Part shown: positions 7,124-48,547 of the stretch, one piece after another
Layout: each line of letters begins with the position of its first letter
Position numbering within the stretch: the stretch's first letter is position 1
Assembly (NCBI RefSeq): GCF_010537335.1
Contig: NZ_AP019711.1
Coordinates: forward strand, 1,178,001 to 1,242,000
Source of the DNA: Amedibacterium intestinale
GTDB lineage: Bacteria > Bacillota_I > Bacilli_A > Erysipelotrichales > Erysipelotrichaceae
Reading direction: 5' to 3'
Length of the DNA: 64,000 bases
The notes under the pieces: model-generated
What the model saw: only the letters and a program-made list of their open reading frames with translations
Told to the model about the DNA's origin: nothing
Database searches by the model: none
Program-made: the position numbers and the translations under genes

Positions 7124-10100
7124 CTAGATATCTTCTTTAGCGATTGCCAATAAACGTCTGTGACGTTTCTGAGCATCTTTCTTAGTTTTTTCAAACATTT
7201 CGTAAGCTGTTTCACCTTTTAATTTAGGTAACTGAGCGAAACGAGTTTCTGTTAACATGAAGTCTAACATTTTATCGTAATCTGGTTCTTTAGAGTCAAT
7301 AGTCAATGGCTGTTCTTTTCTTGGATCATAACGATATAGATCTACATATCCACATTCAACAGCTTTTGCCTGTGTTCTCTGGTGGTTAGCCAATCCACCT
7401 TTAATACCGTGTTCAGCACATGGTGAGTAAGCTAAGATCAAAGATGGTCCATCATAGCTTTCAGCTTCTTTCAATGCTTTCAATGTCTGTGCTTTGTTTG
7501 CACCCATAGAAATAGAAGCTACATATACATGTCCATAAGCCATAGCAATCTGTCCTAAATCTTTCTTAGCTGTTGTTTTACCACCAGCAGCGAATTTAGC
7601 GATAGATGCAGCCTGACTAGATTTAGAAGACTGTCCACCTGTATTAGAGTAAACTTCTGTGTCTAGTACTAATATATTTACGTTCAAGTCGTTAGCTAAT
7701 ACGTGGTCTAATCCACCGTAACCGATGTCATAAGCCCATCCGTCTCCACCAACGATCCAGATAGATTTGCTTACTAAGTCATCTTCAGCTAATTCTTTAA
7801 CTGCTTCAACACTTGATTTAGCAGCTAATTCTTTAATTGTTGGAGCTACTTCTCTTTCAGCTTCACGATCTCCGTGAACTTCGATATATTTAGCAAATGC
7901 TTCTTTCAATTCTGGTTCAACAGTTTCCATGTTGTCTTCCATAATTTTTAGAATACGTGCTTCTTTGTAGTTCTGTGACAATGCCATACCATAACCGAAT
8001 TCAGCATTATCTTCAAACAATGAGTTTGCCCAAGCAACACCTTCTCCGTTTTTGTCATTAACAAATGGAGTTGATGGAGTTGAAGAACAGTAGATCATTG
8101 AACATCCAGTAGCATTAGCAACTAACATGTCACGTCCGAATAACTGAGAAACAAGTTTGTAGTATGGAGTTTCCCCACATCCTGGACATGCTCCACTTAC
8201 TTCAAAGTAAGGCATTAAGAACTGAGATCCCTTAACTGTATCTTTAGGGAAGAATTCAGTTTTGTAATCAATCTGTTTGAATAGGTAATCTGCAAGTGGT
8301 TCCTGATCAAGTTTTTCGTTGATATCAACCATTTCAAGAGCTTTGTTACCTGCTTTACCTGGACATTCAACAACGCATAGACCACAACCTACACAGTTTG
8401 CAGGAGTAACCTGAATACGATATTTCATGTTTTCTACACCTTTACCCATTGCAGGAACTGTTTTGAATTCCATAGGTGCATTTGCAACTTCTTCGTCAGT
8501 CAACAAGAATGGACGAATAGTAGCATGTGGACATACGAAACTACAGATTCCACACTGGATACAGTTTTCTGGGTGCCAAGTAGGTACCTGTACAGCAATT
8601 GTACGTTTTTCTTCAAATGCAACATTGTTACGGATAGATCCATCTAACAAGAAGTCTCCAGTAAATGCAGATACTGGCATATCATATCCTTCAAGACCAT
8701 TGATAACTGCAACATGGTTATCGAAGTATTCATCACCAGTCAATTTACGAGTTGAATCAAATGGAAGTTCAGCCCAAGCTGGATCTACAGTTACTTCAAC
8801 GATTCCATCTTTACCAGCATCGATTGCTTTGTAGTTAAGTTCTACAACAGCATCACCTTTCTTAGAATAAGATTTTTTAGCGAATGCTTTCATCAAATCT
8901 ACAGACTGACTTAATGGCATGATCTGTTCGTTCAATGCGAAGAATGCAGACTGTAGAATTGTGTTTGTTCTACGTCCCATACCGATTTCCTGAGCAATCT
9001 TAGTTGCATTGATGATATAGAATTTAGCATGTTTTTTAGCTAACTGAGCTTTCATACGGTTAGGCATATGCTCAACGATTTCTTCTTTAGAGAATGTTGT
9101 GTTCAACAAGAATGTACCACCATCTTTGATGTTTCTTACCATGTCATATTTGAACATGTAAGCATCTAGTGAACAAGAAATGAAGTCCGCATTACTGATA
9201 TAGTAAGTTGAACGGATTGGAGATTTTCCAAAACGCAAGTGAGAACGAGTTACCCCACCAGCTTTTTTAGAGTCATATGCAAAGTAAGCCTGTGCATACA
9301 TATCTGTGTTATCACCAATGATTTTTACTGTTGATTTGTTTGCAGAAACAGTACCATCAGAACCTAATCCCCAGAACAGACAGCTTGTGTAGTCTGCAGG
9401 AACATGGAATGTTTCATCACAAGGCAAGCTTGTGTGAGTAACATCATCATTGATTCCAATTGTAAATCCGTTTTTCAATTCAGTTTCATTTAGGTGATCA
9501 AATACAGCTTTAATGTGGTAAGCCTGTGTATCTTTAGAACCTAAACCATAACGTCCACCGATGATTTCGATGTCTTTATCTTTTAATGCAGCAAGTACAT
9601 CCAAGTACAATGGTTCACCGATAGAACCTGTTTCTTTTGTACGATCCAATACAGCAATTTTCTTAACTGTTTCTGGAAGCACAGCCAATAAGTATTTAAC
9701 AGAGAATGGACGATACAAGTGAACTTTGATCATACCAACTTTTTCTCCGTTTGCAGTCAATGCATCGATTGTTTCTTTAGCAGCTTCTGTAACAGAACCC
9801 ATAGCAACGATAACACGTTCTGCATCTTTTGCACCATAATATGTAAATGGAGCATATTCACGTCCTGTGATTTCACTGATTTTTTTCATGTATTCAGCAA
9901 CAACATCAGGAACTGCATCATAATGTTTGTTTCTAGCTTCAACACCCTGGAAGAAAATGTCATCATTTTCAGCACCACCACGAGTAACTGGGTTTGTGTG
10001 TGGGTTCAAAGCATTTTTACGGAATTTAGCCAAAGCTTCTTTATCAATTAAGTCTTTGAACACTTCTGTATCCATAACTTCGATTTTCTGAATTTCGTGA

Positions 10101-10630
10101 GATGTACGGAATCCATCAAAGAAGTGAATAAATGGAACACTTGCTTTAATAGCTGACAGGTGAGCAACACCAGCCAAGTCCATAGCTTCCTGTACAGAAT
10201 GAGAAGCTAACATACATACTCCACTCTGACGAACAGAGTAAACATCTTCGTGATCACCAAAGATGTTAAGTGCTCTTGTAGCTAATGCACGTGCAGCAAC
10301 ATGGATAACTCCTGGCAAACATTCCCCAACCATTTTGTAAATGTTAGGAATCATCAGCAATAACCCCTGAGATGCAGTGAATGTAGTAGCTAGAGTCCCA
10401 GCCTGAAGAGCACCATGAACTGCACCAGCAGCTCCTCCTTCAGATTGAAGTTCAGCGACTTTTACAACACTGTCAAAAATATTCTTGCGACCCTGTGTAG
10501 CCCACTGGTCAACAACTTCAGCCATTGGTGAAGATGGTGTAATAGGATAGATCGCAGATAATTCGGTAAATGCATAGGCACAATGTGCAGCAGCAGTATT
10601 ACCGTCCATTGACATAAATTTCTTTGTCAT
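7124..10630 (-). CDS. nifJ: pyruvate:ferredoxin (flavodoxin) oxidoreductase
   Basis: Oxidatively decarboxylates pyruvate to acetyl-CoA and CO2 and passes electrons to ferredoxin, the central step of pyruvate fermentation in anaerobes. The 1168-residue single-chain form holds all domains: pyruvate-binding domain I (YPITPSSPMAE near residue 30), domains II-III, two [4Fe-4S] motifs (CIQCGICSFVCPHA and CVGCGLCVVECPGK) around residues 685-755, a further conserved Cys pair near CPGCGETP for the TPP-side cluster, and the TPP motif GDGWAYDIGYGG near 965. The length is the usual one. GCAAGGAGGAAAAACTAA precedes the ATG. Monocistronic with its own terminator. A weak Rex-like site lies about 100 bp upstream. 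Optimised-looking codon use suggests high expression. Confidence 0.97.
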   Translation of the reverse strand: MTKKFMSMDGNTAAAHCAYAFTELSAIYPITPSSPMAEVVDQWATQGRKNIFDSVVKVAELQSEGGAAGAVHGALQAGTLATTFTASQGLLLMIPNIYKMVGECLPGVIHVAARALATRALNIFGDHEDVYSVRQSGVCMLASHSVQEAMDLAGVAHLSAIKASVPFIHFFDGFRTSHEIQKIEVMDTEVFKDLIDKEALAKFRKNALNPHTNPVTRGGAENDDIFFQGVEARNKHYDAVPDVVAEYMKKISEITGREYAPFTYYGAKDAERVIVAMGSVTEAAKETIDALTANGEKVGMIKVHLYRPFSVKYLLAVLPETVKKIAVLDRTKETGSIGEPLYLDVLAALKDKDIEIIGGRYGLGSKDTQAYHIKAVFDHLNETELKNGFTIGINDDVTHTSLPCDETFHVPADYTSCLFWGLGSDGTVSANKSTVKIIGDNTDMYAQAYFAYDSKKAGGVTRSHLRFGKSPIRSTYYISNADFISCSLDAYMFKYDMVRNIKDGGTFLLNTTFSKEEIVEHMPNRMKAQLAKKHAKFYIINATKIAQEIGMGRRTNTILQSAFFALNEQIMPLSQSVDLMKAFAKKSYSKKGDAVVELNYKAIDAGKDGIVEVTVDPAWAELPFDSTRKLTGDEYFDNHVAVINGLEGYDMPVSAFTGDFLLDGSIRNNVAFEEKRTIAVQVPTWHPENCIQCGICSFVCPHATIRPFLLTDEEVANAPMEFKTVPAMGKGVENMKYRIQVTPANCVGCGLCVVECPGKAGNKALEMVDINEKLDQEPLADYLFKQIDYKTEFFPKDTVKGSQFLMPYFEVSGACPGCGETPYYKLVSQLFGRDMLVANATGCSMIYCSSTPSTPFVNDKNGEGVAWANSLFEDNAEFGYGMALSQNYKEARILKIMEDNMETVEPELKEAFAKYIEVHGDREAEREVAPTIKELAAKSSVEAVKELAEDDLVSKSIWIVGGDGWAYDIGYGGLDHVLANDLNVNILVLDTEVYSNTGGQSSKSSQAASIAKFAAGGKTTAKKDLGQIAMAYGHVYVASISMGANKAQTLKALKEAESYDGPSLILAYSPCAEHGIKGGLANHQRTQAKAVECGYVDLYRYDPRKEQPLTIDSKEPDYDKMLDFMLTETRFAQLPKLKGETAYEMFEKTKKDAQKRHRRLLAIAKEDI

Positions 10631-10774: not shown

Positions 10775-10800
10775 AAGAAAAACGGCGCTGTCAAAACGCC
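10775..10800 (-). terminator. terminator after giant repeat protein gene
   Basis: On the minus strand GGCG-TTTTGACAG-CGCC followed by GTTTTTC, starting 8 bp after the stop codon at 10808. The stem is short but GC-rich. Confidence 0.5.
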
Positions 10801-10807
10801 ATTTCTC

Positions 10808-13800
10808 TTAAAATACAATATGAATGTCTTCGTGTTTTTTTTCAGATATGTCTGCTTTGTTAACAGCTATAATTTCATGCATTTTTTCATCCTGAACATC
10901 AATCACAGCTCTTCCATTTAGAATCTTTCCATCCATTATCCAGTACATAAAATCTTCTGAATTTTCATACAGTACATACCTTCCATAAGGCAGATTGTTC
11001 AATTCACTTGTAAAATTATTTTCATCATCCAATGTTACATCATGAGAATATCCTGCACTCTCATTTCTTACTTCTATGATATAACTGTTCATTTTATCCG
11101 GCTGATTTTGTCCTTCTACTTTTTTGCTTATACGCATGCTGCCATTTTGCACATTGTTTCGATAATTGATGATACCAATAATATTTGTTTTTCCTGGCTG
11201 TGCCTCAAAAACAGCCTGATCCTGTAACACATCGCTATTTACAAAATACTGTACACGATAAGAAGAACCTATTTCCTTGACCTGGTATGTTCCGCTTGGA
11301 TATTGTGTAAGAGTTATGTGCCAGTTGTTATTAGCATTCAATTCATAACGTTCAAACACACCTTCTCCTCGCAGTTCAAAATAGAATACTTCATTTTGAT
11401 TAGGGGCGATAAAATTCCCATTTTTCTCCAGCATATACTTAAAGATTTCCATGGTATTTAAATTTCCAGCACGTTCATTAATGATTTCTACGACCTGATT
11501 ACGTTCTTTCAAATCAACACTGGCCTGGCTGCTTTCTGCCCCTCCATTAACACGATATGTTACTACAAAATCTTCCTTGCCCACTTCTTCGATTTGATAA
11601 ACACCACTTGGCAAATCTCTTAATCGCGCTGTAAAACTATTTCCATTATTTAATTCTACCTGCCGTTTCACACTTTCTCCTGTAATATTTACCAAAAAGA
11701 CATCTCCACTAACCGGTCGCATCAAATTTCCATTTCCCTGACGGATAAATTTTGTAATTTCCAAAACCGTAGCTGGTGCTTGAATAGAATTGATAATTTG
11801 AACCGTATGCACATTTTCCTGTACATCTATGATAGCTTGTGTACTTTCTGCGCTGGTATCTACAACATAGCTGACCTGATAATTATGTGCACTGATTTCT
11901 TTTACCTCATATCTTCCCGGTGCAAGCCCTGTGATATCCTGCTGCCAGTCATTATCCTCATTTAATTCATACTGCATTGAAAAATTATTGCCAGTTACCA
12001 AGATACGGAAAATCTCTGCATCTGATGGAGGAACAAGCTGTCCCTGCATATTACGCATAAATTTAGTAACTCTTAAAAATCCATAGGAGGCATCCCGATT
12101 TTCAATCACTTCTACAAGATTATGATTTCCATGAACTTCTAAAGTTCCATTTGTTTTCTCACTGCCTTTGTTTACGATATAGCTTAATGGTTCCAATGCA
12201 TCTACACTGCTAATAACATATTCTCCATCTTCCAATCCATACACCATACATGTATACGAGTTATCTTTGCATAATGTAAAGATTTCATTATATCCAGGTT
12301 TTGATATGCGTATTTTACAATCCTGATTGGAAGGCTGCAATTGTTTCTGATTCCCTTTGCGCACATATTTTTCAATGCGTATACTTCCTTTGTTTTCTTT
12401 CTGTAAAACGATTTGCAAGGTATGATGATCACTTTTCATTTCGATATGAGAATCTTGTTTTTTATTTGTTCCATCCAATATATAGAATGCTTTGCCATTT
12501 TCCTGAAGTTCTAAATCATACATACCATCTTCTAAATGCTGCAAGCTTACATAGAAATGATTCTCTGGATTCAGCTCTATCATTTTATGCTGTATACCAT
12601 GATGAAGTACTGCATGATATACCTGTTTTGGATATACCATATTTCCATCTTGCTGTTCCATCATACAGATTTCAAGTGAACTTTTGTGTTCCTCTAAATT
12701 TCTTCCAGTAACAATTTTTATATGATGGGTATCATTTTGTACATGGATTGTAACATTTCTTGTTTCTTCTTTTCCATCTACCATATAAGTGCACATCGTT
12801 CCACCAATTTCTTTTACTTCATAATTTCCATCCTTTAAATTCGTTACTTTCACTTTCCATCCATTTTCTTTATTTAACTCAAATATTTCATGATAATTTT
12901 CACCATCAATACCTACCTGATAACAATCATCAACAGAAGGCTGTCTATAACTTTCACAAGAATCCATTGCTTCTACACACTGTAAATATACTTCCCCTTT
13001 TACACCTTCTTCTTTATCCTCCGGCACAATTTCAACAAAAGTTTCTTTGTCTAATAAGAATCGAGCCTGCTGCATTTTAGAACCGTTTACGATATAAGAT
13101 ACAGGAATACCTTCCATTACCTCTAAAGAAATATCGCCTTCTTTTAAAAGTCCCAGCATCTTCATCCACTCATTATCTTCTTCCAGCATAAAGGTATGCG
13201 TTTTTCCTTTGTGCTGCATACGTACCTGACAGGATTCTTTGTTTTTAGAATGATATTGAACAGTCAAAGGAAATTCTGTTTTCTTTGTAACAATTACTTG
13301 AATATCAACTTCTTCTCTTCCTATTTCGATACATACTGCGTCATGGAAAATACCATCTGCTGTTTCAAAGCGAAGTTCTTCTTCATCGATACCTGTTAAT
13401 GTGTAACTTCCACATTCCAAATCTTCTAAGCAAACACAACCCTGATTTTCTTTATTTAAGGAAATAGACCAGCGTTTTCCAGCTCTGCATAAAACAAGTC
13501 TGATTTCTTTTTCGATACTTTTTTGTATACTGTTTTCTTCTATCAAACCATGAAGACAAAGTTTCGCACCCATTCCTCTGGCATTTCGCAAGACTACATC
13601 TGCACAGTTTTGACATAAAGTAACACATGCCCGCTCACAAACTTCTCCATTTACTTCATAACACAAAAGCGTATCTTCCTGTTTCTGATATATTTCATAA
13701 TATCCATCACACATACTATAAAGCTGTACACAGAAATGATTATATTTGTCCAAAACTACACTTTCACAAACACCTTCTCCTTCGATAACCACTTCATAAC

Positions 13801-16327
13801 AGGAGTTTTGATTTGGCTCATAAACACAATTATCCTCTTCTTCATAAGCGCTAATTTCAATCATGTTCTCATTTCTTGCAAGTAAACAGATTTCCTTATC
13901 TTCTCCATCAAAGAAGAAACATCCATGATCTTGTTTCAAGCCATCCACAACAAATCCTTCAATTCCATCATCTACGCAGATTTCATACTCCTGCATGCAT
14001 AAATCATGCAGACACACACAATAAGAATTCGATGCATCTAATACAATGTGCTGATGTGTATCACAGGAAGTAAGCTCCACTTCAAAACAGCCGCATAAAT
14101 TCCAGTTTCCATTTGGACATATTTTTAAAAGAACTACACCATTTTCTTCTTCCTGCATGATATCAACATTTACATCTTCACATCCTAAATTGATGATTTT
14201 TTCTTCTCCTTCTTCATCACATCCATTTTTTCCATAACTTCTTATCTGATAACATCCCTGAAGCAAATCCGTAAAACATACACAGAAATCATTTTGTTTA
14301 CATAAATATACCTTTTCATGCACTCCATTTCCAAACAATTCTACAGGATAGACATTTTCACAAAATGGCATATGTGCATTCCCATCCTGATTTCTCACAT
14401 ACTGGGTAAGAATTAACTTTCCTCCCTGCTCACGCATATCACTGCGTATTCCAATTTCTCTATCTCTTTCATCCATATATATACAAAGATCTTCATAGTA
14501 CTCTTTATCATTGCATAGAAAAATTGCCTGAGCTGATTGTAATCGATATTCCCCCCAGTACAATCCAGAAACTTCAATACACCAGTTATTCTCTTCGCAT
14601 AAGGTATAAGTTTCTTCAAAATCTTCTTTGCACAAAGATACTTCAAAACTATTTTCTTTCTTTTTACACTCCTCATAAGCATAAATTTTCAAATTTCCCG
14701 CTTGTCTTTTACAAGTGCTCATAATACATACTTCCTGCATCCGATCATCAATATATATTCTGGCGTTTTTTTCTCTTCTTCCATTTACCAGATAACAGAT
14801 ACAAGAGTCACTATCTCCTTGTTCAACAAGTTCATAAGTTCCATAGGGAAGATCATCAAAACAAACACACCAGTTATTTCCCTCGTTTAATTCTATATCA
14901 TAGCTATGAAAACAAGAGGATAGTATCACATGGAAAATCTCTTCCCTGCAAGGTTTACATACATGTTCATTTTCTTCATATGCCTCTATTCGAAGTTTCC
15001 CTTTCTCTTTATAAGCAGTAATAATTTGTACCAGATAACAATGTTCATTTTCTACCTGCACCTGTGCACAAGAGGTTTCTTCTCCATCCACAAGATAACA
15101 AATATCTTCATTTGAAAGTTCCTTTACACGGTAACATCCCTCATTCAAATCATGAAGCACGATACAAAAATCATTTTCGCCATCCAATACGAATTGTTCA
15201 CAAAAATCATTACCTTCCACTTCTATCGTAAAGCTCTCATCATCGCAGGGTTTCCATAATTCTCCATCTTTTTGAATTGCTTTTTCTATACGTAAAATAC
15301 CGCACTGAACAGTTGGAAGTTCACATTCCTGTACGATCTCAATACAAGCATGTTCCGCTTTTTCAAGACAGATGCAGGCACGATCTTCCTGTATTACTCC
15401 ATTCACACAATAATACGTATCCAATCCATCTCTGTCTACCAGATAGATGTCATAACAATCCGGACATAAATGGGAAAGTGTTTGTGAAAATCCATTCTCA
15501 CAATTCAGTTCTATTATTTCATCATAATACAGTGATACAATTCGTACATACCATACTTCTTCTCTATCCATTTCCAGACATTTCCCCTGTGGGGTTTTTC
15601 GTGTTAATGATAACTGCAGTTCTGCATCTTTTCTTTCCCGATAAAACATATCCAATCGTGTATCTTCATCATCCAAAACCAGACAGTCTTTTTCCTGTCC
15701 ATTAACTAAAAACCAGCTATCATATCCCTGCTGCTGTGTTTCCACATAATATTTTCCTCTTGGTATTTGTATGCATTCTTCAAATGCATTTTCTTTCTTT
15801 AAAGTTATATCCCATTTTTGATCTGTATCATCTTGTATACACACATTGTATTCATCATTACAGTCATCTTCATACTCTTCATTTTCAAAAGACAGCCTGT
15901 GCTTTCTTATATGAAGCGTCGTTTTCTCTGCATTATAATGTTCCAAACGTACATACACCTCTTTTTCACTTTCTTCATTTTTTATATCCACACTATCTTC
16001 AATAATTTCTTTCTGGTTTACTATCCATTTTCGCTTATAACCCTCAACTGGATTTCCATATTCATCACATTCACTTATATGACATCCACAACCTGAAGCA
16101 TGTTTTACACAAATACTTCCTGTTTTTTTCTGAGGATTCATAAGAATCTGTGCAATACAAATCTCTCCATCCTCATATTCTATTTTTATAAAATAATGAT
16201 CCAGGCATGGTTTTTCATCCATATCTTCTACTTCTACATGCAGCTCCATTTCTTTACTGGAATCTATGGTTTCTAGAAAGCTGACATGCGTAAATGCCGC
16301 AAACACTTCCTTCAGTTTCATTCGCAT
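10808..16327 (-). CDS. giant cysteine-rich protein of 17 CnaB/prealbumin-like repeats, no signal peptide
   Basis: 1839 residues. Residues 1-122 form a distinct N-terminal region; 123-1839 divide into 17 repeats of 92-115 residues. Each repeat runs: opening strand (LRIEKY, LEITKF), a PxxxxxFxVxVxG strand, ELNxxNxW, LPxGxYEVKE, YxVNG, QAxIxV and a closing VxIIN. This is the CnaB/SpaA beta-sandwich pattern. Repeats 14-16 (1414-1724) keep the Lys, Glu and Asn expected for an isopeptide bond. About 84 cysteines are present: about 75 before residue 1017, nine between 1017 and 1413, none after 1360. A CxC motif (NNWCVCF, NDFCVCF, NSYCVCL) recurs at the same place in several repeats. There is no signal peptide, membrane helix or sorting motif, unlike typical CnaB proteins. 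GGAGGAGGAATAAT precedes the start. Function unknown; a mother-cell spore-coat or other intracellular structural role is only a hypothesis. Confidence 0.9.
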   Translation of the reverse strand: MRMKLKEVFAAFTHVSFLETIDSSKEMELHVEVEDMDEKPCLDHYFIKIEYEDGEICIAQILMNPQKKTGSICVKHASGCGCHISECDEYGNPVEGYKRKWIVNQKEIIEDSVDIKNEESEKEVYVRLEHYNAEKTTLHIRKHRLSFENEEYEDDCNDEYNVCIQDDTDQKWDITLKKENAFEECIQIPRGKYYVETQQQGYDSWFLVNGQEKDCLVLDDEDTRLDMFYRERKDAELQLSLTRKTPQGKCLEMDREEVWYVRIVSLYYDEIIELNCENGFSQTLSHLCPDCYDIYLVDRDGLDTYYCVNGVIQEDRACICLEKAEHACIEIVQECELPTVQCGILRIEKAIQKDGELWKPCDDESFTIEVEGNDFCEQFVLDGENDFCIVLHDLNEGCYRVKELSNEDICYLVDGEETSCAQVQVENEHCYLVQIITAYKEKGKLRIEAYEENEHVCKPCREEIFHVILSSCFHSYDIELNEGNNWCVCFDDLPYGTYELVEQGDSDSCICYLVNGRREKNARIYIDDRMQEVCIMSTCKRQAGNLKIYAYEECKKKENSFEVSLCKEDFEETYTLCEENNWCIEVSGLYWGEYRLQSAQAIFLCNDKEYYEDLCIYMDERDREIGIRSDMREQGGKLILTQYVRNQDGNAHMPFCENVYPVELFGNGVHEKVYLCKQNDFCVCFTDLLQGCYQIRSYGKNGCDEEGEEKIINLGCEDVNVDIMQEEENGVVLLKICPNGNWNLCGCFEVELTSCDTHQHIVLDASNSYCVCLHDLCMQEYEICVDDGIEGFVVDGLKQDHGCFFFDGEDKEICLLARNENMIEISAYEEEDNCVYEPNQNSCYEVVIEGEGVCESVVLDKYNHFCVQLYSMCDGYYEIYQKQEDTLLCYEVNGEVCERACVTLCQNCADVVLRNARGMGAKLCLHGLIEENSIQKSIEKEIRLVLCRAGKRWSISLNKENQGCVCLEDLECGSYTLTGIDEEELRFETADGIFHDAVCIEIGREEVDIQVIVTKKTEFPLTVQYHSKNKESCQVRMQHKGKTHTFMLEEDNEWMKMLGLLKEGDISLEVMEGIPVSYIVNGSKMQQARFLLDKETFVEIVPEDKEEGVKGEVYLQCVEAMDSCESYRQPSVDDCYQVGIDGENYHEIFELNKENGWKVKVTNLKDGNYEVKEIGGTMCTYMVDGKEETRNVTIHVQNDTHHIKIVTGRNLEEHKSSLEICMMEQQDGNMVYPKQVYHAVLHHGIQHKMIELNPENHFYVSLQHLEDGMYDLELQENGKAFYILDGTNKKQDSHIEMKSDHHTLQIVLQKENKGSIRIEKYVRKGNQKQLQPSNQDCKIRISKPGYNEIFTLCKDNSYTCMVYGLEDGEYVISSVDALEPLSYIVNKGSEKTNGTLEVHGNHNLVEVIENRDASYGFLRVTKFMRNMQGQLVPPSDAEIFRILVTGNNFSMQYELNEDNDWQQDITGLAPGRYEVKEISAHNYQVSYVVDTSAESTQAIIDVQENVHTVQIINSIQAPATVLEITKFIRQGNGNLMRPVSGDVFLVNITGESVKRQVELNNGNSFTARLRDLPSGVYQIEEVGKEDFVVTYRVNGGAESSQASVDLKERNQVVEIINERAGNLNTMEIFKYMLEKNGNFIAPNQNEVFYFELRGEGVFERYELNANNNWHITLTQYPSGTYQVKEIGSSYRVQYFVNSDVLQDQAVFEAQPGKTNIIGIINYRNNVQNGSMRISKKVEGQNQPDKMNSYIIEVRNESAGYSHDVTLDDENNFTSELNNLPYGRYVLYENSEDFMYWIMDGKILNGRAVIDVQDEKMHEIIAVNKADISEKKHEDIHIVF

Positions 16328-16367
16328 ATTATTCCTCCTCCTATAAGCAATTCGCCCTTATTCACTC

Positions 16368-16394
16368 TAGTATATGAGCCTAGTTTAAAATTGT
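16368..16394 (-). promoter_or_regulatory. candidate sigma-K/sigma-E type promoter of giant repeat gene
   Basis: On the minus strand AC (16394-16393), 16 bp, then CATATACTA (16376-16368). This agrees with the late mother-cell consensus AC-N16/17-CATANNNTA. A vegetative reading (TATACT as -10) lacks a matching -35 (GAACAA). It lies between the upstream terminator and the gene, where a promoter is required. It is a short, degenerate motif. Confidence 0.4.
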
Positions 16395-16406: not shown

Positions 16407-16430
16407 AAAAAAAGACAGCAAATCGCTGTC
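16407..16430 (-). terminator. terminator between small ORF and giant repeat gene
   Basis: On the minus strand GACAGC-GATTT-GCTGTC followed by seven T. It starts immediately after the stop of the 44-residue ORF, separating that transcript from the giant gene. Confidence 0.85.
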
Positions 16431-16586: not shown

Positions 16587-17390
16587 TTATACGTTTACAT
16601 CTCCATCATGAATACATGCCATAAACATGTAGTAGAAACATAAAGCTCCACATATAAGAATTCCATATACAAAGGAAAAAATCACTGCCATCAATACATT
16701 CATATTTCCTCCAATTTCCGTTATATATGTACATGCAATCATAAACGGATTCATGGTCATGATATCGATTACGGCTGAAAATGGATAAAACGTATACCCT
16801 ATCCCAAAAAAAGCACTGGTTAAACTGTAATATAAAGCCACAATTACAACAAGCAGTAAAATACTATAAAAAACAGAACGATAATGAGTAAAAATCGTTT
16901 GAAAACTTGATTTAATTACAGAAAAAGGATTTCTTTTACCATCATATATATGAAAAGCTCCAAATATCTGTACTGGAATATAAAACATCAAAAACAACAT
17001 TAATATTACATTTACGATCATATTAGCCTGCTGCATATCTTTTTCAATCAAATACAATGATAAAAAACTTCCACCTGCCATCAAAACAAAATAAATACTT
17101 TGTACCAAAACCAAAGGAAGTAGAAATGTTCGAAACTTCACTTTCCGTATGTCTTCTCTTTTGGTTTTTAAAAAATTCATTAGAATCATCATATAGACAA
17201 CACCAGAAAAGACTACGATCAAATACAATGCCATGTAATACAAAACGGAATTATTCATCATAAACAATATACGCATTACCAACGTATAAAAGGAAGAATA
17301 CAAAAGACTCGATACAACCAAAACAAGAAGTGCCGATTTCCACTCTTTTGACAAATTTGTAAAATCCAAAAAATCTTTAATCGTTTTCAT
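16587..17390 (-). CDS. six-helix membrane protein of unknown function
   Basis: 267 residues with about six hydrophobic membrane segments and short basic loops (KTKREDIRKVKFR). A polar N-terminus (MKTIKDFLDFTNLSKEW) precedes the first helix. I see no transporter or enzyme motif; it resembles generic YesL/DUF624-like or glycerophosphodiester-linked membrane proteins only in outline. The frame is open to 17414, but the start at 17390 is chosen because GCAGGGGATTT lies before it and the promoter -10 sits at 17418-17413, over the longer alternative start. It forms a probable operon with the 44-residue ORF and lies next to the giant repeat gene, though a terminator separates them. Confidence 0.75.
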   Translation of the reverse strand: MKTIKDFLDFTNLSKEWKSALLVLVVSSLLYSSFYTLVMRILFMMNNSVLYYMALYLIVVFSGVVYMMILMNFLKTKREDIRKVKFRTFLLPLVLVQSIYFVLMAGGSFLSLYLIEKDMQQANMIVNVILMLFLMFYIPVQIFGAFHIYDGKRNPFSVIKSSFQTIFTHYRSVFYSILLLVVIVALYYSLTSAFFGIGYTFYPFSAVIDIMTMNPFMIACTYITEIGGNMNVLMAVIFSFVYGILICGALCFYYMFMACIHDGDVNV

Positions 17391-17412
17391 AAATCCCCTG
17401 CTTTCTTTCATC

Positions 17413-17440
17413 ATTATAACGTATGTAAATTTCTTTGCAA
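17413..17440 (-). promoter_or_regulatory. sigma-A promoter of membrane protein/44-residue operon
   Basis: On the minus strand TTGCAA (17440-17435), a 16-bp spacer, TATAAT (17418-17413). The predicted transcription start is near 17406, giving a leader of about 16 bases to the start at 17390 and ruling out the longer start. Confidence 0.65.
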
Positions 17441-17457: not shown

Positions 17458-17690
17458 AACAGCATTAAATATGCTGTTCAGACCGTTGACAAAGTCGCTC
17501 TTTGAGCAGACTTTGTCATTCGGTCTTTTTTTTATCCCCACTTTTGTATAAAAAACAGGTGATTTTAAGCTATCATTTACCAAAAATCACCTAATAAAAG
17601 GAATCTTTCTACCACTTTTTTAATTGGTTTTATATATTTTCGAAATATATATAGTTTGTCAACAACCTGAACAGCATTAAATATGCTGTT
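17458..17690. repeat. 233-bp MITE-like element with imperfect terminal inverted repeats
   Basis: The ends match in inverted orientation over about 38 bases: AACAGCAT-N5-ATGCTGTTCAG, three differing bases, then GTTGACAAA. The first 21 bases are themselves a palindrome. Inside are a long hairpin (17481-17525) and a second inverted repeat (AGGTGATTTT at 17555 with AAAATCACCT ending 17593). No ORF is present. The right end overlaps the last codons and stop of the neighbouring gene. This could be a non-autonomous transposable element or two related terminator hairpins facing each other. Confidence 0.55.
17481..17533 (+). terminator. long hairpin with T-run inside the repeat element
   Basis: GACCG..TGACAAAGTC pairs with GACTTTGTCA..CGGTC, with an inner GCTC/GAGC stem, then eight T on the plus strand. 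No plus-strand gene precedes it, so it is more likely part of the repeat element than a dedicated terminator. It shares CCGTTGACAAA with the hairpin at 56667-56709. Confidence 0.5.
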
Positions 17691-18138
17691 CATGAAGCTC
17701 CTTTTTTGTTTTCTCATCATCAACAAACTGAGAAAACCAACGCTTTATCTTCTTCTTTCCAAGACACTTTAAATCTACATGTTCCCTATTTTTTAAAACA
17801 ATATGCAATTCATCGAGATCATTTCGACTCTCGCTAATATTCCATTTTAATATATCATTCCAAAACAAAAGAAAACACTCTTCATTTCCATTATTTAAAT
17901 AAAAAACGGCATATTGATCATAAAATTCTATTAGCACAACATTTTTTACAAACAGCAGATAATAAAGAAATAAAATTACCAATACGATTCCAAAAAGGTA
18001 AAAGCGAGTAAACAGTAAAAAAAATCCCAAAACAATGCATATACATATGATCATATATGGCTTTGTTCCGATAGAATCTAATTTTTTTCCATCTTTAGGA
18101 AGATTTCGTGTTTTTAAAATTTTACTTTTCACATTCAC
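17677..18138 (-). CDS. hypothetical protein with two membrane helices
   Basis: 153 residues: a basic N-terminus, two adjacent membrane segments about 28-65 (including FGIVLVILFLYYLLFV), then a soluble domain with strands (VVLIEFYDQYAVFYL) and an LFWNDILKW motif, reminiscent of bacterial PH-like YcxB domains. No firm family was recognised. Start is a GTG at 18138 with GAAGGTGTAAGA before it. The last seven codons and the stop lie within the right end of the repeat element at 17458-17690, so the C-terminus may have been altered by that insertion. Confidence 0.65.
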   Translation of the reverse strand: MNVKSKILKTRNLPKDGKKLDSIGTKPYMIICICIVLGFFLLFTRFYLFGIVLVILFLYYLLFVKNVVLIEFYDQYAVFYLNNGNEECFLLFWNDILKWNISESRNDLDELHIVLKNREHVDLKCLGKKKIKRWFSQFVDDEKTKKELHEQHI

Positions 18139-44398: not shown

Positions 44399-47300
44399 CT
44401 ATCTTTTAAGCTTTTCTTTTTTTCTAAGAACTAAAAATGCTATTAGCCCAGATGCAATCGCAAGAATAATAAGTCCACCTGTATGTTCTTCAACTCCTGT
44501 TTTTACTTTTACAGGTATTTTTTGATTCCTGTATGTTACATGAAGAATATTTCCAATACCTTTTGCTTTTTCATCAAGCACAACCTTTTTAACTTCTTTT
44601 GACAATTGATAGCCTTTTGGTGCCTGTATTTCTTTTAGATAATAAACACCAAATGGAAGGTTTTCAAAACAAATCGTACCATCTTCTTTGTTGGCATTTT
44701 TAATAGAAATTAAATCTGTACAACCTTCATCCTTGTAAATCGCAAATATAAAATCACTTCCTGTAATCGGCTTACCTGTTGTAGAATCTACTTTATGTAC
44801 TACAATATCCGTTAACAACAATTCATCTTTCATTTGTACTTTTTGTATTTCTCCAGTATCTTTTACTTCAAACACTATCTCCTCAGCAAGTGCATAACCT
44901 TTTGGAGCAAGTGTTTCTACTAGTTTATACTTGCCAACAGGAAGTGCCTTAAATACGGTTGGCTTTTCTTTTGATATAAATTCTTCTACCACTTCATCAC
45001 TTTCTAAATCCACGATTTGCAAATGTGCACCGGCAAGTTCTTTTTCTCCTGTTATATCTGTTTTCGAGATTTCTACTTTTGTGGCTTCATTTCCAATATC
45101 GAAGCTAAATGACAGTACATCTTCTTTTTGATTTGTATACTTCGTATCAAACAAATAACGTGTTGTTACACCACTAGTATATCCTGCAGGAGCTTTTGTT
45201 TCCTGAACATAAAACAAAGCATTCAAATCTCCTTCATAACGAATATCTTCATCCTTTGAGGCATTTTCTTCTTTCAATGGATCCATCGCATATTCAGGTG
45301 TCAGATCATTTGGCAAATCAAGAGTAAAAACTGCCTTTCCTGTTTCATCACTCTCTACTGTTTCCAATTTTGTATTTGGATCTGCAATCACCTCTCCATC
45401 ATAATTGTACAGTTTTCTGTTCGTATAAAGACTTATTTGTGCACCTAGTAACCCTTCTTTTGTTTCAGAATCCAGTTTATTTACACAAACTTCTATTTTT
45501 TGTCGTTCATTATCAAAATCCTGCAGCTCACTAAATACAACTTCTGTTTCCTGATTCTGATATTTGAGTTCTACTTCTTTTTTTTCTGTAGATTGTACAT
45601 AGCCATCAGGAGCTTTCTTTTCTACGATGTAGTATTTTCCTAGAGGAAGTAAAGATGTAGTTATAACTCCCTGTTTTCCTGTTACTAACGTTTCAATAAG
45701 TTCATCTTTTCGATATAAGATATCTCCATGGTTATCTGGTGATAAAATATCTTCTGCAGCATAAATTTCAAATTCGGCATCTGCGAGTTTCCTTTTTTCA
45801 TATACAAATTTTGCAGTTCCCTTTTCATCAAAGTAAAGATCTTTAAGAACTTCTCCTTCTTTACTAACTTCAATTCTTCCTTTTACCGATTGATCTGACA
45901 TTTTTACCGTTATAAGCGGTGTTGTTCCATCTGGAAGAGTTTCATGTGCTTCCTCTTTCGAAATTTTAAATTTCACTGGTTCTGTATTGATAACATACCC
46001 ATTTGGAGCTTTGATTTCTTCTAACCGATATTCTCCCGGATGAAGCACATCCCCAGTCATTACGGTTCCATCCTCCGCAGTTTCCCATGTATCTACATAA
46101 TGAGGAAATGGGTTCCATTCCCAATAACCTACATATTTGTTTGTTTTTAAGTCTTTAATTTTAAAAGTTGCACCTGGAATAGCCACTGTATTTCCTGTTT
46201 CTATATCAAGTTTTACAATCTTCAATACAGCTTTAAATTTTTCGTCATTGAACACTCGCCAAACCTGCGGCTCTCTGCTATCTTCTGTAATCGTTACGGT
46301 AAAATCAGGAACGCTGTAGTGATCAGATGGTGTTTTTGTCTCTCTTATAACATATGTTCCAAATGACAATTCATCAGAAAGTGCATATCCTTTCTTATCT
46401 GTGACCATGACTGCTGCATCTTTACCAAATGCATTTTTCGCAACTGGTGCTTTTTCCCAGCTTCCATATTTATCAATCTCTTTCTGTGCTTTGATAGTAA
46501 ATTCTGCACCCTCTAACAAGTCTGCCTCTCCAGATCCATTATCAGAAATTTTAATTATTTCAAACGGCTGAGAGATAACTTTTTCTGATGAAGTAACAGA
46601 TTTTATAATCAATGCCACTTCCTGCCCCTCATAGCTAATATCAATCATATAAGTTTTTGGATCCAATGTATAACCATTACTTGGCTTTACTTCCTTTACA
46701 TTGTATTTTCCTAAATACAACTGATCATTTGTAGAAGCATTTCCTTCGCTGTCTGTTGTAAGTGTTGTGATCAAAGTGTCTTTTTCATGAAGAACACTTC
46801 CATCTGCTGGATCAACAATATTTTCCGCTGCTCTTACTTCATAAACTGCACCTTCCAGTGTTGCTTCTCCCTGTGGGTTTTTTCCAATTACACTATCTTC
46901 TTTAGAAAGCTTAATTTGTCCTTTTACTCTGGTATTTGATAAAACTGCTTCATATTTTTTTCCATCTTCTGTAATGTTATAGACTAGTTTTTCATCAGAA
47001 TGCGTATAGCCATCTGGTGCAGTTTTTTCTACTAAGTAGTAGCTTCCATAACGAAGAAGATTGCTTTTCGCAATACCATTATTGTTGGTTGTAATATCTG
47101 TTACATAAGTATTATCAGACTTATATACAGAGAATGTCGTATTAGCCTTTACTACAGTTTTTCCAGTTTCTTTATCACGTTTTAATACCTGAATATACCC
47201 TTCAATTGGTTTATCACTTCCACTAACTTCAATTCTCTGTTCATTTTCTGACACAGTTACGCTATACTCCTGTGGATTTAAAACATATCCTTCAGGCGCA

Positions 47301-48547
47301 ATAATCTCTTTTACTCTATATTCTCCAAATCTTAAATATCCGGATTCCACATAGCCAGTTGCCGTTGTGACCAGTCGTTCTAATTCCTGTCCTTGTTGAT
47401 TATAAATAGCATAAGTTGCACCACCTACCTGCTCATTGGTTTTGCTGTCAACTTTTCTTAGTTTGATCTTACCTTTTACCCAATTGTTTTTTGCAGTATA
47501 AGTAGCTGTTTCATTCGGATTGATGGTTACAGTTCGAATAGTAGTATCAAGTACTAAATGACTAGGTACAGAAGTTTCCTGTATATACCAAGTACCCTGT
47601 TCTAAATCATTGACAGTTACCGTACCATCACTTCCAGTCGTATAGGTTCCAATTGGAGAGGACATATCCGCATTTTTAGACAGCTTGAATGATGTATTAG
47701 AAACATAATTTCCATCTTCATCCTGTTTCGTAATTTTTAAAGACCCTGTTCGATTTACTTTAATTCTAACAATTGAACCATAGGGATCTTTTCCAGTCAA
47801 ATAAGAAACAGCCTGATTTTGTCCTTGACGAACGACAATTGTATCTTTCGTTTGTTCAGTAGACATACCTCTATCAAAAGTAATCGTCATTGTATCCAAT
47901 GTACCATCAGGAGTGACTTTTAAAGTGTTTCCACTGATACTTGCTTTTCCACCTGTCACACTCTTGATTCGCAAACCACTTAAAACTTTATTCGTATCAT
48001 TGATACTGGCAGTTTCCCCCATATCAATTGTAATTTCCTTATTATAAAAACTAGGTTTATCATAGAAATGATTTACTTTATTCATGACATTGTTGAACCA
48101 GGATTGCATAGAGGATTCATTTGGATACGTGGAATTTCCCATTCTCTGTCCACTTCCTAAATATTTCCACACTAGATTCTGTGTCATCATATAGTCAACT
48201 TTTGTTGGTTTTGATTTACTTCTGTATCCATACCATGTAATAAGTGCCATTTCATTCATCTGTTTATCTGTCAAGCCAATATCACTAGGTTTTATAGGTT
48301 CATTTGGACCTATTGCGGATACTTTATCCGGCTCTATACAGAAGGCCTGTTTTCCATTCAAATAAAGAATAGATCCATCCCCATATTTATCTGAACCAAA
48401 GAAATACCAATCTGACTGATACTCTTCTGTTAAATTATAAGTAGCAGCTTTGACAATCGGAATTCCATTTGTAAAGACTGTTGTCAGTGCCATAAAACCT
48501 GCTAGTACAAGTTTTGGAATTTTATTTAAAGTCTTTTTAAACTTCAT
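44399..48547 (-). CDS. thioester-domain surface adhesin with about ten CnaB/SpaA repeats
   Basis: 1382-residue secreted protein. Signal peptide 1-35 (cleavage after IVKA), then a thioester domain with the Cys and Gln that would form the bond: C70 in AFCIEP and Q123 in MMTQNLVW. Such domains bind host proteins covalently. From about residue 255 onward come roughly ten CnaB/SpaA repeats, each with an opening Lys strand (LKITKQD, IKLRKVD, VEISKTD), an acidic Y.VKE.APxGY motif and a closing strand, so intramolecular isopeptide bonds are likely. The C-terminus has a hydrophobic helix and a basic tail (RKKEKLKR), with VKVKTGVEEHTGG before it in place of LPXTG. GAAGGAGGAAAAATGT precedes the ATG. Cell-wall adhesin or pilin-like tip; no sortase gene is in the window. 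Confidence 0.93.
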   Translation of the reverse strand: MKFKKTLNKIPKLVLAGFMALTTVFTNGIPIVKAATYNLTEEYQSDWYFFGSDKYGDGSILYLNGKQAFCIEPDKVSAIGPNEPIKPSDIGLTDKQMNEMALITWYGYRSKSKPTKVDYMMTQNLVWKYLGSGQRMGNSTYPNESSMQSWFNNVMNKVNHFYDKPSFYNKEITIDMGETASINDTNKVLSGLRIKSVTGGKASISGNTLKVTPDGTLDTMTITFDRGMSTEQTKDTIVVRQGQNQAVSYLTGKDPYGSIVRIKVNRTGSLKITKQDEDGNYVSNTSFKLSKNADMSSPIGTYTTGSDGTVTVNDLEQGTWYIQETSVPSHLVLDTTIRTVTINPNETATYTAKNNWVKGKIKLRKVDSKTNEQVGGATYAIYNQQGQELERLVTTATGYVESGYLRFGEYRVKEIIAPEGYVLNPQEYSVTVSENEQRIEVSGSDKPIEGYIQVLKRDKETGKTVVKANTTFSVYKSDNTYVTDITTNNNGIAKSNLLRYGSYYLVEKTAPDGYTHSDEKLVYNITEDGKKYEAVLSNTRVKGQIKLSKEDSVIGKNPQGEATLEGAVYEVRAAENIVDPADGSVLHEKDTLITTLTTDSEGNASTNDQLYLGKYNVKEVKPSNGYTLDPKTYMIDISYEGQEVALIIKSVTSSEKVISQPFEIIKISDNGSGEADLLEGAEFTIKAQKEIDKYGSWEKAPVAKNAFGKDAAVMVTDKKGYALSDELSFGTYVIRETKTPSDHYSVPDFTVTITEDSREPQVWRVFNDEKFKAVLKIVKLDIETGNTVAIPGATFKIKDLKTNKYVGYWEWNPFPHYVDTWETAEDGTVMTGDVLHPGEYRLEEIKAPNGYVINTEPVKFKISKEEAHETLPDGTTPLITVKMSDQSVKGRIEVSKEGEVLKDLYFDEKGTAKFVYEKRKLADAEFEIYAAEDILSPDNHGDILYRKDELIETLVTGKQGVITTSLLPLGKYYIVEKKAPDGYVQSTEKKEVELKYQNQETEVVFSELQDFDNERQKIEVCVNKLDSETKEGLLGAQISLYTNRKLYNYDGEVIADPNTKLETVESDETGKAVFTLDLPNDLTPEYAMDPLKEENASKDEDIRYEGDLNALFYVQETKAPAGYTSGVTTRYLFDTKYTNQKEDVLSFSFDIGNEATKVEISKTDITGEKELAGAHLQIVDLESDEVVEEFISKEKPTVFKALPVGKYKLVETLAPKGYALAEEIVFEVKDTGEIQKVQMKDELLLTDIVVHKVDSTTGKPITGSDFIFAIYKDEGCTDLISIKNANKEDGTICFENLPFGVYYLKEIQAPKGYQLSKEVKKVVLDEKAKGIGNILHVTYRNQKIPVKVKTGVEEHTGGLIILAIASGLIAFLVLRKKEKLKR

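Follow-up and report, generated by a model that had tools for sequence, protein, structure and literature searches.

Giant, cysteine-rich CnaB-repeat proteins without export signals: a family in Erysipelotrichaceae with a putative role in outer spore layers

Results

A giant gene next to nifJ

We analysed a 64-kb stretch of DNA from Amedibacterium intestinale, here called the window. The gene under study and its surroundings contain the following features.

7124-10630, minus strand: nifJ (pyruvate:ferredoxin oxidoreductase), downstream of the gene and on the same strand
10775-10809, minus strand: terminator-like hairpin 3' of the gene and before nifJ (simple pattern match)
10808-16327, minus strand: open reading frame of 1839 codons with an ATG start, encoding a protein of 212 kDa and pI 4.6
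16334-16341, minus strand: strong ribosome-binding site GGAGGAGG, before the ATG
16368-16376, minus strand: -10-like box CATATACTA of the mother-cell sigma type, kept in all 15 intact homologues
16393-16394, minus strand: AC, resembling a sigma-K -35 element and lying 16 nt upstream of the CATA box
16414-16430, minus strand: terminator-like hairpin 5' of the promoter box (simple pattern match)

Since terminator-like hairpins flank it on both sides, the gene seems to be transcribed as a unit of its own. Two membrane protein genes lie upstream on the minus strand (16587-17414 and 17677-18138). Neither gave a significant Pfam or NCBIfam match; their relatives recur at many of the homologous loci, clearly so for the one of ~150 residues.

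Predicted CnaB domains along the protein

The original prediction had described a protein of 1839 residues with 17 CnaB/SpaA-like repeats and about 84 cysteines, and our recount agrees, giving 84. An iterated repeat HMM placed exactly 17 repeats at residues ~144-1823 of this protein, and SpaA was the sole Pfam family over its cut-off when the whole protein was searched (33.5 versus 23.1 bits). Some homologues scored lower for SpaA (P0003, 21.7 bits). Searching NCBIfam with the protein gave no match. The PDB sequence search also gave no match with the protein, and the family profile yielded only a marginal collagen adhesin. Residues 1-24 are predicted to be disordered; they are followed by a diverged CnaB-like domain (~25-131), the repeats and a short C-terminal tail. 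In an AlphaFold model, residues 25-131 form a further, 18th domain, diverged but all-beta and sharing the strand order of the repeats (mean pLDDT 77, from an alignment of five rows only). The segments of the protein referred to below are the following.

14702-15319, minus strand: two Cys-rich repeats, CnaB domains by prediction (residues 337-542, AlphaFold pLDDT 94)
12248-15955, minus strand: Cys-rich repeats (residues ~125-1360), with most cysteines before residue 1017 and at outward strand positions
10859-12067, minus strand: repeats 14-17, Cys-free, with Lys/Glu/Asn isopeptide triads (residues ~1421-1823)
10811-10831, minus strand: conserved C-terminal tail peptide EDIHIVF, DDLRIVIE-like in homologues

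The model of residues 337-542 (input: 75 repeat pairs, five homologues) had pilins and CnaB stalks as Foldseek neighbours, pilins being the top hits (E 4e-8), and it aligned with Lactobacillus plantarum CnaB2 over 87 residues (Z 9.4, rmsd 3.0). No structure of a non-CnaB kind emerged, and we are confident that the predicted fold of the Cys-rich repeats is a CnaB-like beta-sandwich.

Homologues in seven genera

Profile searches identified 15 further homologues in the order, one per genome and in seven genera, all of them Erysipelotrichaceae. Named carriers are Longicatena caecimuris, Amedibacillus dolichus and metagenome-assembled genomes labelled Longicatena and Eubacterium. The full-length homologues have 1740-2430 residues, 16-22 repeats and 55-97 cysteines; one homologue is fragmented, and its genome is 66% complete. 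At an E value of 1e-12, 392 genomes sampled from the phylum yielded none beyond Erysipelotrichaceae. Scanning genome contigs with the 1839-residue sequence alone confirmed nothing; an alignment-based scan gave four homologues. One profile match (G113) was left out of the family: with 3 cysteines and a C-terminal membrane stretch, this large protein is of the surface type. Judged from sequence, the remaining proteins form a previously unnamed family of giant, apparently unsecreted, Cys-rich CnaB-repeat proteins.

A short C-terminal tail, for example DDLRIVIE, is conserved at the end of all intact members. Hydrophobic residues alternate in this terminal peptide, which could be a docking strand.

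Absence of export and anchor signals

Hydropathy, a motif scan and inspection detected neither a signal peptide nor a membrane helix or sortase anchor in the 1839-residue protein, in line with the original prediction. Its best 19-residue hydropathy window reached 0.98, and LPxTG was absent. By the same means, no signal, anchor or adhesin domain was recognisable in any homologue. None of the outcomes that the original prediction had named as refuting it was thus observed. The window also contains a classical secreted SpaH-type counterpart, with which the unexported protein contrasts.

44399-48547, minus strand: SpaH/EbpB-type surface protein of 1382 residues and 4 cysteines, with an N-terminal signal-like stretch and a C-terminal membrane helix (best 19-residue hydropathy window 2.46)

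CnaB stalks are characteristic of pili and of adhesins on cell surfaces, and such a protein is encoded nearby. The 1839-residue protein might thus be a vegetative surface fibre or adhesin that is exported without a classical signal peptide, like other Gram-positive CnaB stalks. We regard this as quite improbable: known surface CnaB proteins, that at 44399-48547 included, retain export and anchor signals, which all members of the family lack together with any adhesin domain; the secreted neighbour has few cysteines; and the box before the gene is of the mother-cell type.

Outward cysteines and isopeptide triads

The cysteines are unevenly spread, as had been noted: 75 of the 84 precede residue 1017 and none follows residue 1360. 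In most family members, cysteines crowd into the N-terminal two-thirds, and the C-terminal third bears triads but almost no cysteine; this conserved gradient is less marked in the copies of g70 and G158. To assign strand faces, we used the consensus hydrophobic alternation (95% versus 27% hydrophobic) and not coordinates; on this basis, cysteine occupied 27 of 5491 inward positions (0.5%) and 388 of 5798 outward positions (6.7%) in 310 repeats of the family. Bonds between molecules, or metal binding, fit such outward cysteines better than buried disulfides do. Co-occurring Cys columns gave no convincing strand neighbours as disulfide pairs, and only the pair 26-48 stood out among well-counted pairs. 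The recurrent CxC of the original prediction is real in the 1839-residue protein, where four repeats carry it at one shared position, but it does not extend to the family: the first cysteine is present at this position in 93 of the 310 repeats and both in 8.

The Lys/Glu/Asn triad could be aligned in repeats 14-16, as claimed, and repeat 17 probably bears it too (K1735/E1788/N1823 region). This amounts to 3-4 of 17 repeats, versus 11-16 of 21-22 in several homologues. Across the family, 155 of 310 repeats have the triad, and at least 3 cysteines accompany it in 73 of them. In most homologues, an intact triad and several cysteines thus share repeats; the two are not alternatives, and the proposal that an isopeptide scaffold is turning into a disulfide-stabilised one is not supported as a general account. 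The 1839-residue protein has the longest branch and belongs to a triad-rich clade in which all other members except its sister G001 keep the triad widely. The loss is therefore derived, and the lineage of this protein has shed triads.

A protein with 55-97 mostly outward cysteines and without an export signal might also be a cytosolic metal or redox buffer, its surface cysteines binding zinc, copper or iron or storing thiols, perhaps in the service of nifJ. The family gene immediately precedes a co-oriented nifJ in 10 of the 16 loci. On the other hand, a terminator-like hairpin sets nifJ apart as its own unit, and in five g55 genomes the two genes are not neighbours. No recurrent metal motif was found, the CxC being mostly peculiar to the 1839-residue copy, and cysteine positions change between distant homologues (21 in common of 81 and 59). 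Such a buffer would also leave the promoter box and the link with spoIVA, described below, unexplained. We consider this explanation unlikely.

Selection on the family

The loss of most triads and the long branch could also mean that a one-time surface protein lost its signal peptide and is decaying, drifting and gaining cysteines by chance. A broken family gene does exist in genome G013 (L024, 10326-12180): it has five repeats, the repeat upstream of them is ended by a stop, and no mother-cell box precedes it. We found no spoIVA in G013, where sporulation may be decaying; however, the spore sigma factors are present, and this weakens the remnant as proof that the gene decays when sporulation is lost. 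Against decay of the family stand 15 intact long open frames. The ratio dN/dS was 0.07 in two close homologue pairs, so strong purifying selection maintains those copies, and 0.07-0.14 across the closer pairs. Members within g55 have 62-76 cysteines in common, and the box, ribosome site and C-terminal tail are conserved. Decay therefore seems highly improbable as an account of the family. Selection may be relaxed on the 1839-residue copy alone: compared with G001 it gave a dN/dS of 0.46, in an alignment of 33% identity in which synonymous sites are well diverged.

A putative late mother-cell promoter

CATATA(C/A)T occurs 45-60 nt before the start codon in 15/15 intact genes (chance expectation 0.13), and the upstream regions are otherwise divergent between genera around it. 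Six members, the gene of the window included, have AC 16 nt before the box (G000, G001, G015, G257, G084 and G164); the element is absent in two clades, g55 and g70. Four g55 members (L066, L067, L068 and L069), which have no AC, keep CGCTTTTT 20 nt before the CATATA box; this is perhaps a drifted -35 element.

In Clostridioides difficile, a sigma-E promoter has been mapped with the form ATA-N16-CATATATA, and the sigma-K form combines AC with CATATAAT (PMC3789822). The published sigma-K consensus is mACm-N16-CATA-N3-TA (PMC5749712), and the AC-to-box spacing found here is one base under it. In the carrier genomes, spoIVA has mostly an ATA-type -35 element at equal distance from the box, which corresponds to the sigma-E form. 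On the strength of the C. difficile forms and the comparison with spoIVA, we read the box as a late mother-cell promoter, for which sigma-K is more likely than sigma-E. The gene yabG, meant as a sigma-K yardstick, is absent from the genome. Genome-wide, the 15-mer box was not enriched (31 matches versus 29 for the reversed control), so the box is not tied to a known coat regulon.

Association with spoIVA

The genome of the 1839-residue gene contains spoIVA and spore-type sigma factor genes. Of all 16 carriers, 14 have spoIVA, the two exceptions being genomes that are 66% and 86% complete. Among 316 genomes of the order, presence of the family gene was associated with spoIVA (Fisher p about 1e-8, relatedness not corrected for). 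The gene is missing from 53 of the 67 spoIVA-positive genomes of the order and is thus not a core coat gene. One carrier, L. caecimuris, counts among the spore formers and was recovered from faeces treated with ethanol (PMC8340488).

Discussion

A model for the role of the protein

The 1839-residue protein is probably a structural component of the spore outer layers (coat, exosporium or appendage) that is made in the mother cell. We favour this reading because the protein is predicted to be cytosol-made, Cys-rich and repetitive, and its gene carries a box resembling a mother-cell promoter. For a spore protein made in the mother cell, a missing signal peptide would be normal. More generally, the promoter and the distribution of the gene suggest that, in some gut Erysipelotrichaceae, the sporulating mother cell makes members of the family as building material for a cross-linked outer spore layer.

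We infer the spore location, the isopeptide bonds, the disulfides and the roles of mesh, stalk and tail from sequence features, and they would fit together as follows. Late in sporulation, transcription of the gene from its own promoter would depend on a mother-cell sigma factor, sigma-K being the likeliest. The protein would remain in the mother-cell cytosol, where no signal peptide is needed, and fold as a rod of 18 CnaB-like domains. Each of the domains that keep the triad would close one internal Lys/Glu/Asn isopeptide bond. Once the rods have gathered on the forespore, oxidation would let the many outward cysteines of the N-terminal two-thirds form disulfides, largely between molecules. 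These would produce an insoluble mesh, from which the Cys-free C-terminal third might protrude as a rigid stalk.

A more specific version, which we put forward tentatively and hold to be less likely than not, is a doubly cross-linked spore material. It would combine cytosolic isopeptide CnaB rods, dozens of intermolecular surface disulfides and a C-terminal peptide that docks a rod onto the next rod or onto the forespore. If true, this would be, as far as we know, the first CnaB-type isopeptide protein in a spore layer and not in the cell wall.

Coat proteins are often too divergent to detect by similarity to those of Bacillus or Clostridium. The spore layers of Erysipelotrichaceae, which are common gut bacteria, appear little described; our search for papers on their coat proteins found none, and the family offers a concrete coat-protein candidate. 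The pilus-type CnaB fold was apparently recruited where secretion plays no part, with an unusual load of outward cysteines, and the family makes joint isopeptide and disulfide cross-linking in one intracellularly assembled material testable.

Comparison with known systems

PitA, SpaA, GBS52, the Cna B repeats and the TIE protein of Bacillus anthracis share the CnaB fold, the Lys/Glu/Asn triad and the tandem rod with the present protein. Sortase-type pilins and CnaB stalks are, however, secreted, wall-anchored and poor in cysteine, whereas the 1839-residue protein has no signal peptide, LPxTG or membrane helix. Our search of the literature on CnaB domains or isopeptides in spores found no paper describing its family.

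Among spore proteins, CsxA (Clostridium sporogenes), ExsY/CotY (Bacillus) and CdeC (C. difficile) are likewise Cys-rich and self-assembling (PMC7333573, PMC7677010). CsxA and ExsY, precedents for the reading favoured here, form disulfide-linked arrays that assemble inside the mother cell (PMC7333573), and their disulfide cross-linking has been shown (PMC7333573, PMC7677010). The Ena appendages of the Bacillus cereus group are beta-sandwich spore fibres, disulfide-stabilised and sortase-free; they consist of jelly-roll subunits in a helical fibre (PMC8619143), whereas the present protein has tandem CnaB repeats with isopeptide triads. The spore appendage proteins P29a/P29b of Clostridium taeniosporum and the related CRD proteins, a further precedent, are spore-surface repeat proteins with putative sigma-K promoters, as here, and four of the nine appendage-locus proteins contain DUF11; the text searched has no mention of cysteine (PMC5749712). 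DUF11 is a CnaA-like domain that often forms isopeptides (PMC12617251), whereas the domain here is CnaB. Compared by description, the C. taeniosporum proteins range in size from 29 kDa to 564 residues, far below the protein studied here, and have a different gene neighbourhood.

CsxA (25 cysteines), ExsY/CotY and CdeC are also much smaller than the 1839-residue protein. To our knowledge, none of them consists of CnaB repeats with an isopeptide triad. The original statement that no described system resembles this one was thus too strong, as Cys-rich and DUF11-repeat spore proteins are known. What seems new is the combination: a giant CnaB-repeat protein that would join isopeptide triads and dozens of outward cysteines in a spore-layer role.
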